Below, piece by piece: positions 11,214-54,469 of a stretch of 64,000 nucleotides of DNA. Each line of letters begins with the position of its first letter. The first letter of the stretch is position 1. Where the stretch lies: NCBI GenBank assembly GCA_902622955.1, contig CACNRP010000003.1, positions 29,402 through 93,401 on the forward strand, read 5' to 3'. The notes below the pieces were generated by a model. It did no database searches. It saw only the letters and a list, made by a program, of their open reading frames with translations, and was not told the DNA's origin. The position numbers were made by a program, and so were the translations under genes. The DNA is from an uncultured Pelagibacteraceae bacterium. GTDB taxonomy: Bacteria > Pseudomonadota > Alphaproteobacteria > Pelagibacterales > Pelagibacteraceae.

Positions 11214-11217
11214 AAAA

Positions 11218-11256
11218 AAACGCCTCTCACACAAATTGTAATGAGAAGCGTTTTTT
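11218..11256. terminator. bidirectional intrinsic terminator (carD / lysine-rich peptide gene)
   Basis: An inverted repeat AACGC-C-TCTCA ... TGAGA-A-GCGTT has one C/A mismatch. T runs lie on both outer sides (six on the plus strand, eight on the minus strand). It lies between the two convergent genes, so it can end both transcripts. Confidence 0.85.
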
Positions 11257-11274
11257 GTAAAGAATACTAAGTTA

Positions 11275-11367
11275 CTATTTTCTTCTTCTTTTTTTTGCTT
11301 TTTTCTTAGCTTTTTTCTTAGCTTTTTTCTTAGTTTTCTTTGCCGCTTTTTTTCTTTTCTTAGGCAT
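11275..11367 (-). CDS. 30-residue lysine-rich basic mini-protein
   Basis: This ORF is missing from the track because it is short. It encodes 30 residues, of which 18 are Lys and 4 Arg, beginning MPKKRKKAAKKT and ending KKRRRK, with an AKKK unit repeated. The DNA has three exact 12-bp repeats (GCTTTTTTCTTA on the plus strand). Support for a real gene: a near-perfect Shine-Dalgarno AAGGGAG ends 6 nt before the ATG, a TTGACA-like promoter lies upstream, and a terminator follows the stop. It resembles the lysine-rich tails of histone H1-like proteins, suggesting nucleic-acid or ribosome binding by charge, but I do not recognise a named family. Confidence 0.7.
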   Translation of the reverse strand: MPKKRKKAAKKTKKKAKKKAKKKAKKRRRK

Positions 11368-11391
11368 CTTTAGCTCCCTTTTTTAGTTAAA

Positions 11392-11408
11392 CGAATCAAA
11401 TTGATTCG
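11392..11408. promoter_or_regulatory. 8-bp dyad in the 5' region of the lysine-rich gene
   Basis: CGAATCAAATTGATTCG is a perfect inverted repeat with 8-bp arms around a single central base. It lies between the predicted promoter and the Shine-Dalgarno of the lysine-rich mini-gene, at about the transcription start. It could be a repressor operator; with a 1-nt loop it is unlikely to fold as a simple RNA hairpin. Confidence 0.5.
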
Positions 11409-11419
11409 GTATTACTATA

Positions 11420-11448
11420 TTTTTATTTTTTTATGTAAGTTATGTCAA
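11420..11448 (-). promoter_or_regulatory. sigma70-type promoter for the lysine-rich mini-gene
   Basis: On the minus strand a consensus -35 TTGACA is followed after 17 nt by TAAAAA as a weak -10, with TATAGT a few bases further on as an alternative. The element is 50-80 bp upstream of the mini-gene ATG and is one of the clearest -35 boxes in the window. Confidence 0.5.
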
Positions 11449-11567
11449 TTCTTTAATTAAAAGTTAAATTTTAAAAAAAAAATTTTAATTTTTTTATTTT
11501 TATAAAACTTTTTATTATTAATTTTGTTAATGTTTATGCGGTTAATAAACAATTTTTTTTAAACAAT

Positions 11568-20549: not shown

Positions 20550-21658
20550 CCCTTCATAGGCATTACAACAAAAATACTATCAAAATCACCTGGATCTTTT
20601 ATCAATGCTGGTGAACCAGTATCATTAAAGAAAATTTCAACTCTATCTCCATCTAGTTGCGAGGCAACATCTATTAAGTATCTAGAATTAAAACTTATCT
20701 CTAAATCATGATCAAACTTAACACTTAAAGTTTCTTTACCATCACCACTGTTAGTATTATTTACCGACATATCTAGAGTGTCTTTAGATAAATTGAATTT
20801 CACACCATCCTTTTTATCTAATGAAACTGACGCTACTCTATCAACAGAATTTAAAAATAATTTTAAATCTATTTCTAATTTTTTTTGATTATTTTTAGGA
20901 ATAACTTGAATATAATTGGGAAATTTTCCATCAATAAGTTTTGAAATTAAAATACTATTATTTAATTCAAATTTAATTTTAGATTTTACATTTGAAACTT
21001 TTACATCTCCATCATAGCTGTCTAGTAAAGAGCAAAGTTGAAAAATTGTTTTTTTTGGTAAGATTATTGGATCAAAATCAATTTTTTCTTCTAATCTAAT
21101 TTTTGAAATAGACATTCTATGACTATCTGTTGCAACCGCAGTTAAATAATTTTTATCTTCAACTTCAGTTTGATGGAAATAAATACCGCTTAAATAATGT
21201 CTTGTTTCATCATTAGAAACTGAAAATTTACACTTATTTAATAATTTCAGCAGTTGTTTTGACTTAATTACAAATTCATTTTGATTAAAATTTTCATCTG
21301 TTAATGGAAACTCTGTAGCACTTATGCAATTTAAATTAAAAATTGATTTTTCAGACTCTACTTGTAGTTTACTTATATCTGTAAGTGAAAGATTTATTTT
21401 TTTTCCTGAATTAAACTTTCTTACAATATCATACATTATTGAGGAAGTTGTAGTTGTTTTACCCTCCTCTAAAATTTCTACATTATTTAATTTATGTATA
21501 AATATTAAATCTAAATCAGTCGCTGTGATAGTAAGCTTTGAATTACTTGCATCTAATAAAATATTAGAAAGTATTGGTAGCGTACTTCTTTTCTCGATAA
21601 CCCCTTGACAATAATTTAATGCTTGCTGAAGGTCCTGCTGATTAACGTTAAATTTCAT
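20546..21658 (-). CDS. dnaN: DNA polymerase III beta sliding clamp
   Basis: The 370-residue beta clamp forms a dimer ring that tethers polymerase III to DNA. Three repeated clamp domains are visible: the N-terminal MKFNVNQQDLQQALNYCQGVI start, the LSGIYFH middle region and the C-terminal SRYLIDVASQLDGD with VVMPMKG end. It is the second gene of dnaA-dnaN; its start codon lies 11 bp inside the end of dnaA, so the two are translationally coupled. recF is not next to it, as in other alphaproteobacteria. Confidence 0.97.
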   Translation of the reverse strand: MKFNVNQQDLQQALNYCQGVIEKRSTLPILSNILLDASNSKLTITATDLDLIFIHKLNNVEILEEGKTTTTSSIMYDIVRKFNSGKKINLSLTDISKLQVESEKSIFNLNCISATEFPLTDENFNQNEFVIKSKQLLKLLNKCKFSVSNDETRHYLSGIYFHQTEVEDKNYLTAVATDSHRMSISKIRLEEKIDFDPIILPKKTIFQLCSLLDSYDGDVKVSNVKSKIKFELNNSILISKLIDGKFPNYIQVIPKNNQKKLEIDLKLFLNSVDRVASVSLDKKDGVKFNLSKDTLDMSVNNTNSGDGKETLSVKFDHDLEISFNSRYLIDVASQLDGDRVEIFFNDTGSPALIKDPGDFDSIFVVMPMKG

Positions 21659-23066
21659 TTTCTTTAGTATTATATAAAATCTGATTCTTTAATTTATTTA
21701 TATTATCAACCATTTCAGGATCTTTTTCTTTAATTTTTTCAATAGTTTTTACTGAATGAATTATTGTAGTATGATCTCTATTAGAAAATTCTCTTCCAAT
21801 TTCAGGTAACGATTTAGATGTCAAAATTTTGGTTAAATAAATTGCTGTTTGCCTAGGTCTTACTAAGTATCTGGATCTTCTAGATGATAACATTTCATTT
21901 TTACTGATTTTAAAGAATTTACAAACAATTGTCTGAATTAAATCTATCGTAACTTTATTTTCTGCTAAATTTAATAAATCTTTTAAAACTACTTTTGTTT
22001 CAGAAAGATTCGGGGCTTTATTATAAATTCTTGAAAATGAGACAACTCTATTTATTGCACCAACTAACTCTCTTATACTTCCAGTTATTTCATTGCTTAT
22101 AAAATCTTGAATTTCTTTAGAAACTTGTAATTTTTCCGAATACAAAGCATTGAGTTCATCTGTTTTTTTTTCAACAATTTTTTTTCTCAACTCAAAATCT
22201 GGTTTTTGGATATCAACAACTAGTCCGCCAGAAAATCTTGATTTAATTCTTTCTTGAATTCTTGATAATTTATTTGGTGCTCTATCAGCTGATACAATTA
22301 TTTGAGATCCTTTATCAAGTAATGCATTAAATGTGTGAAAAAATTCTTCCTGCATAGCTTCTTTTCCACTAATAAACTGAATATCATCGATTAATAAAAT
22401 ATCTGTATTTCTAAAATATTCTTTAAATTTAACCATATCATTTGATTTGATTGATTTTACAAACTGATACATGAAACGCTCAGCAGAAATAAACATTACT
22501 TTATTATTTCTTTTAACCTCTAAACCTATTGAATTTAGTAAATGAGTTTTTCCCATCCCAACCCCACCATAAATGTAAAGTGGATTATAATGAGATATAT
22601 TCTCTGAAACTTTTAAAGAAGCTTCGTATGCCAATTTATTTGAGGAACCTGTTATAAAGTTATCAAACCTTTTATTTGGATCAATTCGATTATATTGGAG
22701 GTAAGAATCTTTAATGAATGAAATATTTTCAACTGTATTGCTCTCCTCAGTATTGCCCTCTTTAATTGTATTACCTTGGGCTTTTTCAACTATTTTGAAC
22801 TCAATCCTAATAATATCTTTTTTATATATTTTAATAATTTGTAATATTTGGTCTAAATATCTCGACGTAATCCAATCTCTTATAAATCTAGTTGGAACCG
22901 ATAATAATAAATAATTACTAAATTCCTCTACGAACGAAATCTTTTTTAACCAACTCTCATAAACTTCTAAGCCTAGTTTTTTTTTCATTTCATTCTGAAC
23001 TTGTTTCCATTCAAAACTTTCTGAAGAAAAATTATTAATATTTTTTGTATTTGTTAATTTGTTCAT
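21648..23066 (-). CDS. dnaA: chromosomal replication initiator DnaA
   Basis: DnaA binds origin boxes and unwinds the origin. In this 472-residue protein domain I (about 20-100) includes YESWLKKISFVEEF; the AAA+ domain has Walker A GGVGMGKTHLLNSIG, Walker B DILLIDDIQF and the sensor segment; domain IV has RRSRYLVRPRQTAIYLTK and the DnaA-box signature FSNRDHTTIIHSVKTI. Order dnaA-dnaN on the minus strand with an 11-bp overlap. The 312-bp gap upstream, before rpsT, carries iteron-like repeats. No strong Shine-Dalgarno precedes the ATG. Confidence 0.97.
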   Translation of the reverse strand: MNKLTNTKNINNFSSESFEWKQVQNEMKKKLGLEVYESWLKKISFVEEFSNYLLLSVPTRFIRDWITSRYLDQILQIIKIYKKDIIRIEFKIVEKAQGNTIKEGNTEESNTVENISFIKDSYLQYNRIDPNKRFDNFITGSSNKLAYEASLKVSENISHYNPLYIYGGVGMGKTHLLNSIGLEVKRNNKVMFISAERFMYQFVKSIKSNDMVKFKEYFRNTDILLIDDIQFISGKEAMQEEFFHTFNALLDKGSQIIVSADRAPNKLSRIQERIKSRFSGGLVVDIQKPDFELRKKIVEKKTDELNALYSEKLQVSKEIQDFISNEITGSIRELVGAINRVVSFSRIYNKAPNLSETKVVLKDLLNLAENKVTIDLIQTIVCKFFKISKNEMLSSRRSRYLVRPRQTAIYLTKILTSKSLPEIGREFSNRDHTTIIHSVKTIEKIKEKDPEMVDNINKLKNQILYNTKENEI

Positions 23067-23378
23067 AACGTAAGGGGAAATCTCAGTTAGAACTATTTAA
23101 AAAAATTTGCAACAAGTTAATAAGAAAAAGAAAAAAAAAATAAAATCTATGATTGTGGTTTAGATTTTTAACTAATAAGTATTTTAGATTTTAAATTTAA
23201 AATTTAAAATTGAATCGAACATAGATTGAATTAACAATAAGTTTAACTTTAGATTGAATCAAACATAGATTGAATGAACCTAATTCAAATATTTACTAAG
23301 TCTAAATGTAGTAATTTAAAGTAGAGTTTAAATATATAATGTAGATATCAGGAGTTGTTGAAAAATCTAAGCTAACGT
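23067..23378. other. dnaA-rpsT intergenic region, repeat-rich candidate regulatory/origin region
   Basis: This 312-bp gap is the longest without a gene. It contains an extremely AT-rich block with TTTTAAATTTAAAATTTAAAA, four iteron-like ATTGAATN(R)AAC elements, many TAGATT words in both orientations, and a weak rpsT terminator at the right end. No consensus TTATCCACA DnaA box is present; only weak matches such as TTATTAACT occur. It must contain the dnaA promoter. Confidence 0.6.
23209..23280. repeat. iteron-like direct repeats upstream of dnaA
   Basis: Two 27-bp units with 25 identities are offset by 44 bp, each made of two ATTGAAT-containing subrepeats 16 bp apart. The four elements read ATTGAATCGAAC, ATTGAATTAAC, ATTGAATCAAAC and ATTGAATGAAC. 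All are in the same orientation, and most are preceded by TAG or AT. The arrangement is like iterons or a multi-site operator. Confidence 0.75.
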
Positions 23379-23387
23379 TTAGATTGC
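23361..23387 (-). terminator. weak terminator after rpsT
   Basis: On the minus strand AATCTAA ... TTAGATT (7-bp stem, 8-nt loop) overlaps the rpsT stop and is followed by TTT. The stem is AT-rich, so termination would be modest. Confidence 0.4.
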
Positions 23388-23639
23388 AGCAATTTTTTTT
23401 GTTATTCTAGAAACATTTCTAGAGGCATTTTGTTTTTTAATAATCCCAGTTTTTGCAATTTTCATCAACTCAGAGTTTAACTTTGGTAAGAATTTTAAAG
23501 CTTCATCTTTCTTTTTTCCATCGATTAAAAGATTCATCTTTTTAAGAGCATTTCTAAACCTACTTTTTCTAGCTTTATTAACTGCTGTTTGTTTAGAAAT
23601 TCTTCTAATTCTCTTAATTGCTGATTTTGTGTTTGCCAT
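23379..23639 (-). CDS. rpsT: 30S ribosomal protein S20
   Basis: S20 binds 16S rRNA early in small-subunit assembly. I start at MANTKSAIKRIRRISKQ, giving 86 residues, normal for S20; the track's 24-residue extension would overlap mutM and does not resemble the family. The protein is helical and very basic, with the conserved KSRFRNALKKM core and the SRNVSRITKKIAA end. rpsT upstream of dnaA is a common alphaproteobacterial arrangement. No clear Shine-Dalgarno is seen. Confidence 0.95.
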   Translation of the reverse strand: MANTKSAIKRIRRISKQTAVNKARKSRFRNALKKMNLLIDGKKKDEALKFLPKLNSELMKIAKTGIIKKQNASRNVSRITKKIAAI

Positions 23640-48867: not shown

Positions 48868-48881
48868 AATTAATTTTAACC

Positions 48882-49262
48882 TTAATAAATAGGATTAATC
48901 AAATTCTTTTCAATTTTAAATTTTTCACATAATTCAGGTATATTTTCGTATTTTATGTCTTTTTCACCTTTAAAATCTTTAATACTAAAACAATAATAAT
49001 CAATATTATTAGTTAAATTAAATGCTTTTACTATGGACAGAGAATTTCTTATTCCAGCAAAGCTTCCTGGACCTCTATTTAGATAAATTTTATCAATGTC
49101 TTTTAGACTCAATTTGTGGGAATTTAAAAAATCATTAATTATTAAAGTTAATTTTTCATAATTAATTTTAGTATTCTCTTTAGTAATATTATAAATATCA
49201 TTACTAGTAATGATCATTAAAAAAATTTTTTCTCCAGCCACATCAATTATAAGTTTATTCAT
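48882..49262 (-). CDS. tsaB: short TsaB-like tRNA threonylcarbamoyladenosine protein
   Basis: TsaB partners TsaD in making t6A on tRNAs. I start at MNKLIIDVAGEKIFL, the usual first strand, giving 126 residues; the track adds 17 residues not typical of the family. The signature RGPGSFAGIRNSLSIVKAFN is clear. Typical TsaB has over 200 residues, so most of the second lobe is gone, but the last residues LINPIY resemble the normal C-terminus, suggesting an internal deletion. The start overlaps the divergent deacetylase gene by 53 bp. rimI, usually next, is absent. Confidence 0.8.
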   Translation of the reverse strand: MNKLIIDVAGEKIFLMIITSNDIYNITKENTKINYEKLTLIINDFLNSHKLSLKDIDKIYLNRGPGSFAGIRNSLSIVKAFNLTNNIDYYCFSIKDFKGEKDIKYENIPELCEKFKIEKNLINPIY

Positions 49263-52939: not shown

Positions 52940-54469
52940 TCAGTACTTTAATTTAATATCATTCATTTGAAAAGCTTTGATGAAATAACATACAATTAAA
53001 TAGAATAATAATCCCAATATTACACATAAAACTAAATATAAAGATTTTGTTGTCTCATCAAATGATAATTTGTTTTGAAAAAAATTTAATAAAAAGTAAA
53101 AAAATAAACCCATCAAAATTGATGCAAAAATTATTTTAATGAATTTTATAAAAAACTTTTGATTAAAATAAAATAGTTGATGATTTTTTAAAAATAAAAA
53201 TAGAAGAATTGAATTAAACCAAGATGAAATCGAAGTTGCTATTGGAATTATTATAAAACCAATTTTGTTAAAAAAGTAAACACTAATTGAAATATTTAGT
53301 ATTACAGATATTAATGAAATATAAAACGGTGTTTTAGTGTCATGATTTGCAAAAAAAAAGCTTGAAAAAACTTTTATTAAAGCAAAAGCAGGTAAGCCTA
53401 ATGCAAAATAATACAAAGCTAAACTTGAGTTACTCACTGAATTTTCGTTAAATGATCCATAACCAAATAAAGCTGAAATAATTTGTTCTGATCCAATAAT
53501 TAAAGCGATAGTAGCTGGAAGACTCAAAAATAAACTTAATTCAAGAGCTTTATTTTGTATTAGTAAAATCTTACTTCTATTTTTAGATTGAACGTGTTTT
53601 GAAAGCTGAGGAAGTATAACAACTCCAATTGCAATGCCAGCTATAGCAAGGTTTATTTGATAAATTCTATCTGCATAATATAAGTAAGACACTGCACTTG
53701 CTTGAAATGATGCAATTATAGTACCAATTAAAATATTTATTTGAGTAACTCCAGAGGAAAAAATACTTGGTAAAAGCTTTTTAAAAAAAAACTTTACTTT
53801 ATTGCTTACTTTTAATTTAAAACTTAATTTAAGGTAGTAATATTTTGATACATATTTAAATAAAAATATTAGTTGTAAAAAACCAGCCAAAGAAACACCG
53901 TAAGATAAATAATAAACCAACTGATCGCCCAAAAATTTAGAAAAAATTAATACTAAAGTTAAAACAATATTTAAGATTATTGGGGCTGCTGCTGCAACTG
54001 CAAACTTATTATGTGAATTTAAAATTGCAGAAAAAAATGAAGCTAAAGAAATAAAAAGTAAAAAAGGAAAAGTAATTCTTGTTAAATCAATTGCTACCTC
54101 CATTTTTTCTACATCACCAACAAAACCTGGTGCAATAATTGAAACAAATATTGGCATGAAAATTTCAACAATTATTGTTAAAAATAATAATCCTAAAAAA
54201 AGAAGATTGAAGATATCGTTAGCAAATTTATTTGATTGTTTTTTCCCTTTTCTAATTTCTGATGAATAACTTGGTACAAACGCTGCATTAAAAGTTCCCT
54301 CTGCAAACAATCTTCTGAAAGTATTTGGAATTCTGAATGCAACAAAAAAAGCATCGGCTAACATTCCTGTTCCTAGAAAAATTGCTATTAAAATATCTCT
54401 TAAATAACCTAGCAATCTACTAATGATAGTATAAAAACCAAATGTCCCTGTTGACTTAAGTAAATTCAT
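52940..54469 (-). CDS. murJ: lipid II flippase MurJ
   Basis: MurJ moves lipid II across the inner membrane for peptidoglycan synthesis. The 509-residue MATE-like protein has about 14 hydrophobic segments. The N-terminal motif [30 protein letters not shown] and [15 protein letters not shown] are diagnostic of MurJ/MviN (quoted in part). It is the first gene of murJ-trpS on the minus strand and divergent from the malic enzyme gene. Confidence 0.94.

Follow-up and report, generated by a model that had tools for sequence, protein, structure and literature searches.

Conserved elements between rpsT and dnaA in SAR11 bacteria point to a dnaA control region with GANTC-bearing repeats

In iteron-type origins (plasmid Rep, Vibrio RctB), short direct repeats accompany an AT-rich stretch and a gene for the initiator. 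The chromosome origins of Alphaproteobacteria have a known arrangement of their own, between hemE and COG1806, as in Caulobacter and Rickettsia (PMC1914354). In Caulobacter, transcription of dnaA depends on the methylation state of GANTC sites (PMC3973325, PMC2217572). A CcrM of SAR11 has been noted previously (PMC3973325), GANTC methylation has been seen both in a cultured Pelagibacter and in the sea, the methylated fractions being lower around ori (PMC9516812), and in one comparative study likely GcrA targets were few in Pelagibacter (PMC7987155).

Here we analyzed the gap between rpsT and dnaA in a window of 64,000 nucleotides from a SAR11 (Pelagibacter) bacterium. Its closest named relatives, all single-cell genomes, are Pelagibacteraceae whose DnaA is at most 95% identical. 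The assembly from which the window was taken comprises 856 kb in 47 contigs and is 67% complete. The gap (positions 23067-23378; 312 bp, 21% G+C) separates two co-directional genes on the minus strand, rpsT (ribosomal protein S20; 23379..23639; TIGR00029) upstream and dnaA (21648..23066; TIGR00362, 482 bits) downstream. A preliminary description of the locus called it the longest gene-free stretch of the window, which is incorrect: by mechanical ORF calling (at least 60 aa), the stretches 11214-11567 (354 bp) and 48868-49209 (342 bp) are longer. Neither of them gave a tRNA or Rfam match.

Conserved elements of the rpsT-dnaA gap

We aligned 106 rpsT-dnaA gaps, that of the window included, from relatives that are not independent of one another, and grouped them by DnaA identity as near (at least 91%), mid (84-91%) and far (below 84%). 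The four-fold sites of dnaA, with identities of 0.83 near-near and 0.43 near-far, served as a rough neutral yardstick. The alignment, which had been proposed in the preliminary description, resolved a structured region composed of promoter-proximal blocks, a site referred to here as ii, a 16-bp repeat array and a palindrome, iv. Closest to dnaA, on the minus strand, are the promoter-proximal or leader block CAGTTAGAACT (23084..23094; AGTTCTAACTG on the dnaA strand), with identities of 0.96 near-near and 0.79 near-far, and the block TTTGCAACAAGTTAAT (23106..23121; 0.99 and 0.76), which is possibly the -35 region of the dnaA promoter. Site ii, an A-tract with AAATCTATGATTGTG (23133..23157, plus strand), is conserved at 1.00 near-near and 0.94 near-far, and palindrome iv (23293..23314; consensus TTACTAAATCTAAATATAGTAA, TTACTAAGTCTAAATGTAGTAA in the window) at 0.97 and 0.89. 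Because these identities exceed those of the four-fold sites, we conclude that ii, iv and the promoter-proximal blocks are under strong constraint. Block vi, which adjoins rpsT (23333..23358, minus strand), reaches 0.95 near-near and 0.55 near-far and is weak beyond close relatives. An 8/9 match to a DnaA box in vi of many close relatives, TGTGGATAT, was rejected; the window has TGTAGATAT at this place, and other gaps have GTGAGTA, GTGCTTA or GCGTATG.

The four same-direction elements reported in the preliminary description were confirmed at 23209 (ATTGAATCGAAC), 23225 (ATTGAATTAAC), 23253 (ATTGAATCAAAC) and 23269 (ATTGAATGAAC), as were the spacings of 16, 28 and 16 bp between their starts and the pair of 27-mers with 25/27 identities. 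Among 300 dinucleotide shuffles of the gap, a chance model without repeat expansion, the best such pair had 22/27 identities, and none contained four ATTGAAT words. The repeats exceed chance and are conserved. They form a direct-repeat array (23209..23279, plus strand) with four ATTGAAT units and an ancestral unit, ATTGAATCAAACATAG, of 16 bp; the array stands upstream of dnaA, about 140-210 bp from the start codon. Relatives retain the unit core ATTGAATC-AA but differ in copy number and in the spacer, which drifts; the repeat steps are mostly 16 bp in mid-group gaps and 16+28 in near-group gaps. A distance of 39 bp separates the last repeat from site iv in 51/58 near and 18/29 mid gaps; six further mid gaps have 23 bp, shorter by one unit. 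The far clade lacks the array. In some far-clade gaps (e.g., L102, L108, L113 and L115), the place of the array is taken by TTTGACA...TATGTATTA, which resembles sigma-70 sequences well, reads in the direction opposite to dnaA and may be a divergent or antisense promoter.

The view that the gap is under selection is supported mainly by sites outside the motif on which the preliminary description was based, namely ii and iv. It does not extend to the array as a whole, with identities of 0.82 near-near and 0.24 near-far, or to the AT-rich block TTTTAAATTTAAAATTTAAAA. The latter is present as described (23189..23209) and is unconstrained: the AT spacer 23158-23208 has identities of 0.78 and 0.39, like the four-fold sites of dnaA (0.78 vs 0.83 near-near). 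The recurrence of TAGATT/AATCTA words was also borne out: the gap has 7, where 0.40 would be expected per 312 bp, and nowhere else in the window are these words as dense.

In nearly every close relative, site ii (A-tract and AAATCTANGATTG) precedes the start codon of dnaA by about 75 bp. The exact sequence AAATCTANGATTGTG has 26 matches in 101 genus genomes, 26/26 of which stand beside dnaA as judged by coordinates. A looser pattern gave 40 matches in an order-wide sample, of which 33/40 adjoin dnaA, all inside the genus (coordinates compared by hand), and three genomes carry ii in tandem, with two or three copies 42-45 bp apart. When scoring matrices for ii and iv were applied to the complete genomes G012 and G082, the best site was in each case the dnaA gap; the next-best site scored 8-15 bits lower for ii and 5.5-17 bits lower for iv, and neither site has a comparable second copy in these two genomes. 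Being nearly unique in the genome, ii and iv are therefore not ordinary regulon operators; a dnaA-dedicated factor probably binds them. The GATTGTG stretch within ii was considered as a DnaA box and rejected, as it matches at 6-7/9 positions by inspection and turns to GATTGAAG in some relatives. Candidate IHF and Fis sites in the gap, judged by eye, were partial matches that are not conserved.

GANTC sites and a proposed control of dnaA

The repeats embed GAATC, a form of GANTC, the target of the CcrM methylase. The site in repeat 1 (23212..23216) is present in 62/62 close relatives, that in repeat 2 (23228..23232) in 53/62, with the window having lost it (GAATT), and that in repeat 3 (23256..23260) in 26/62. 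GANTC occurs 2.44 times per near gap vs 0.58 expected and 2.41 times per mid gap vs 0.46 expected, nearly always as GAATC, which amounts to a 4-5-fold enrichment in both groups. At least one site is found in 62/62 near, 28/29 mid and 10/15 far gaps; the other 5/15 far-clade gaps have none. The last repeat (23269) is GAATG rather than GANTC, yet it is the best conserved unit, and the repeat motif is therefore more than a methylation target. Given this unit and a far clade without the array, methylation can account for no more than part of the function and does not apply throughout the group.

The genomes tested (G000, G012 and G082) each encode one CcrM-like methylase (PF01555) and a GcrA (PF07750, above cut-off). 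The G012 methylase matches Caulobacter CcrMI along its length (472 bits) and falls below the NF050803 Caulobacter cut-off. On the dnaA strand, the repeats read CGATTCA/TGATTCA, which fits the YGAKTC part of the GcrA motif YGAKTCK (PMC7987155) and not its final K. Upstream of ccrM itself, which starts at 135734 (minus strand) in G012 and at 697245 (plus strand) in G082, two GANTC sites, spaced by 11 bp, are conserved in both lineages (at -34/-23 and -32/-21); this pair suggests that ccrM may be under GANTC control.

It is very likely that the gap is a dnaA control region of some kind, and we consider it probable, with distinctly less assurance, that its GANTC repeats are functional. A regulatory array at dnaA, one of the suggestions of the preliminary description, stands as the best reading, in which control of dnaA, a role of methylation here and protein binding at ii and iv are what we infer from sequence comparison. 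The accompanying proposal of DnaA autoregulation through a noncanonical motif is unsupported: DnaA retains its conserved recognition segment, RDHTT, and boxes of the normal type are present at hemE. DnaA boxes in the promoter region, as expected of a DnaA-autoregulated promoter, are lacking.

In the mechanism that we propose, the dnaA promoter would lie within ~75 bp of the start codon, with the A-tract and ii flanking it upstream and the methylatable repeats and palindrome iv further upstream. The repeats ATTGAATCAAA, with their GAATC, would be CcrM methylation sites. Once a fork leaves oriC (most likely at hemE), dnaA would be copied early, and its GAATC sites would remain hemimethylated until CcrM acts; GcrA or another factor would read this methylation state, which would then alter dnaA transcription, as in Caulobacter. 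Sites ii and iv, which flank the repeats, would be bound by the dnaA-dedicated factor. Counting against this mechanism, the repeats are ~140-210 bp from the start codon, farther than in typical GcrA-activated promoters, and the mismatch at the final K of the GcrA motif, the few likely GcrA targets in Pelagibacter (PMC7987155), the GAATG of the last repeat and the far clade without the array speak against it as well. A bolder version, in which ii and iv are operators of an unrecognised, dnaA-dedicated SAR11 regulator that, together with repeat methylation, sets initiation timing without CtrA and replaces the control by DnaA boxes and CtrA known from other alphaproteobacteria, is speculative and rather unlikely.

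Two other explanations of the conserved elements were weighed. The repeats, ii and iv could be operators for some protein controlling dnaA, the overlap with GAATC being incidental to ATTGAATCAAA. The positions outside GANTC (ATT.... and ..AA) are indeed equally conserved, about 20% of near units lack either the G or the C of GANTC, the array has GAATG in its last unit, and the most constrained sites, ii and iv, contain no GANTC. Speaking against an incidental overlap are the presence of GANTC in 90/91 near and mid gaps at 4-5-fold enrichment, the CcrM and GcrA encoded in the genome and the far clade, which keeps TTGAATCAA(C) in 8/15 gaps at another place, near rpsT; we regard it as doubtful, though deserving of consideration. 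Conservation at the RNA level, whether of an rpsT terminator, a dnaA leader RNA or a small RNA, appears very improbable. The dnaA strand of ii does contain an inverted repeat, AATC-ATA-GATT, followed by a T-run (TTTTATTTTTTTTT), and GTTG...CAAC inverted repeats occur near the rpsT stop in some far-clade gaps. However, the arms of ii are nearly invariant and its loop is partly conserved, unlike in a terminator stem, and searches for a conserved secondary structure of an RNA leader or terminator were negative: the region has no Rfam match, a promoter/terminator scan gave no hits, terminator-like hairpins included, and RNAalifold, run on both strands of 37 diverse sequences in windows of 80 nt, yielded no consensus structure. 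The main text of a P. ubique structured-RNA survey mentions neither dnaA nor rpsT (PMC2704228), and that of a marine TSS study does not mention dnaA (PMC5069720).

A dnaA control region with functional GANTC repeats, the reading that we prefer, offers concrete and testable candidate sites for dnaA control in SAR11 and a probable link between this control and the GANTC methylation already measured in Pelagibacter.

Probable position of the replication origin

The preliminary description also considered the gap as a candidate origin, while observing correctly that it has no standard DnaA box: TTATNCACA with 0 or 1 mismatch is absent from the gap of the window. No perfect DnaA box was found in any of the 106 rpsT-dnaA gaps, and boxes with at most one mismatch occur in them at the chance level (72 vs 71.5 in shuffles). 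Alphaproteobacterial oriC is flanked by hemE and COG1806/COG1253, and the gap is flanked by dnaA and rpsT. We compared the hemE locus and skew in two complete relatives, G012 and G082. In both, hemE and a COG1806/DUF299 gene, identified as COG1806 by reading its sequence rather than by a family search, diverge from a gap of 261-267 bp with 15-18% G+C, ~60 kb from dnaA; in several other relatives, hemE and dnaA are about 60-66 kb apart on one contig. The hemE-COG1806 gap contains 4-6 DnaA boxes (at most 1 mismatch), three of which, including TTATTCACA, are at matching positions in G012 and G082, and no GANTC sites. The probable oriC coordinates are 1261949-1262209 in G012 and 910394-910660 in G082 (L195:10394-10660).

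The GC-skew check suggested in the preliminary description gave a divided answer. In both complete genomes, the turning point of the raw cumulative skew is about halfway from dnaA to hemE and thus favors neither locus, whereas GC3 skew corrected for gene strand fits hemE better than dnaA by ~3.4 lnL in each of them; TA3 skew was uninformative. The window itself has a cumulative GC skew minimum at ~53000-54000, which agrees with the raw turn between dnaA and hemE in G012 and G082. No match for hemE or ParB was found in the window's own assembly (67% complete), and the position of its oriC is therefore taken from the relatives.

We conclude that the replication origin is most likely at hemE, ~60 kb from dnaA, and that the dnaA gap is probably not the origin. 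For the gap to be the chromosome origin, or a second one, its repeats would have to act as iterons and its AT-rich block as an unwinding element. The repeats, the AT-rich block and the place beside dnaA would suit such a role, as would the tandem copies of ii in three relatives, and the midway turn of the raw skew is compatible with dnaA. Set against this are the counts of DnaA boxes, absent as perfect matches and at chance with one mismatch in the dnaA gaps vs 4-6 at hemE, the GC3 skew preference in two genomes, the unconserved AT block, the array missing from the far clade and the known alphaproteobacterial origin position at hemE-COG1806. An origin in the dnaA gap is thus highly improbable. 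The probable SAR11 oriC at hemE is of consequence for growth-rate methods in which contigs carrying dnaA are assigned to the origin (GRiD, described in PMC7852909); in the present case, this assignment would miss the origin by about 60 kb.

Comparison with known systems

The dnaA gap resembles iteron-type origins in its short direct repeats, its AT-rich stretch and the adjacent initiator gene. In contrast to them, its array has a non-helical spacing of 16 bp and a variable copy number and is absent in the far clade, the AT stretch is unconserved and the initiator is an ordinary DnaA. With the alphaproteobacterial oriC (Caulobacter Cori, Rickettsia), the gap shares its AT-richness and a location near dnaA's chromosomal neighborhood, but it has other neighbor genes and no DnaA boxes; it is the SAR11 hemE-COG1806 gap that fits this family.

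The CcrM/GANTC-regulated dnaA promoter of Caulobacter crescentus is similar in that GANTC sites precede dnaA and the genome, likewise alphaproteobacterial, encodes CcrM and GcrA. The Caulobacter promoter has DnaA boxes (PMC2217572), whereas the SAR11 gap has none, and no CtrA has been reported in Pelagibacter (PMC2877005), in contrast to Caulobacter. In SAR11, the GANTC sites stand in a 16-bp direct-repeat array well upstream of the gene, and the gap has two additional, near-unique sites, ii and iv.
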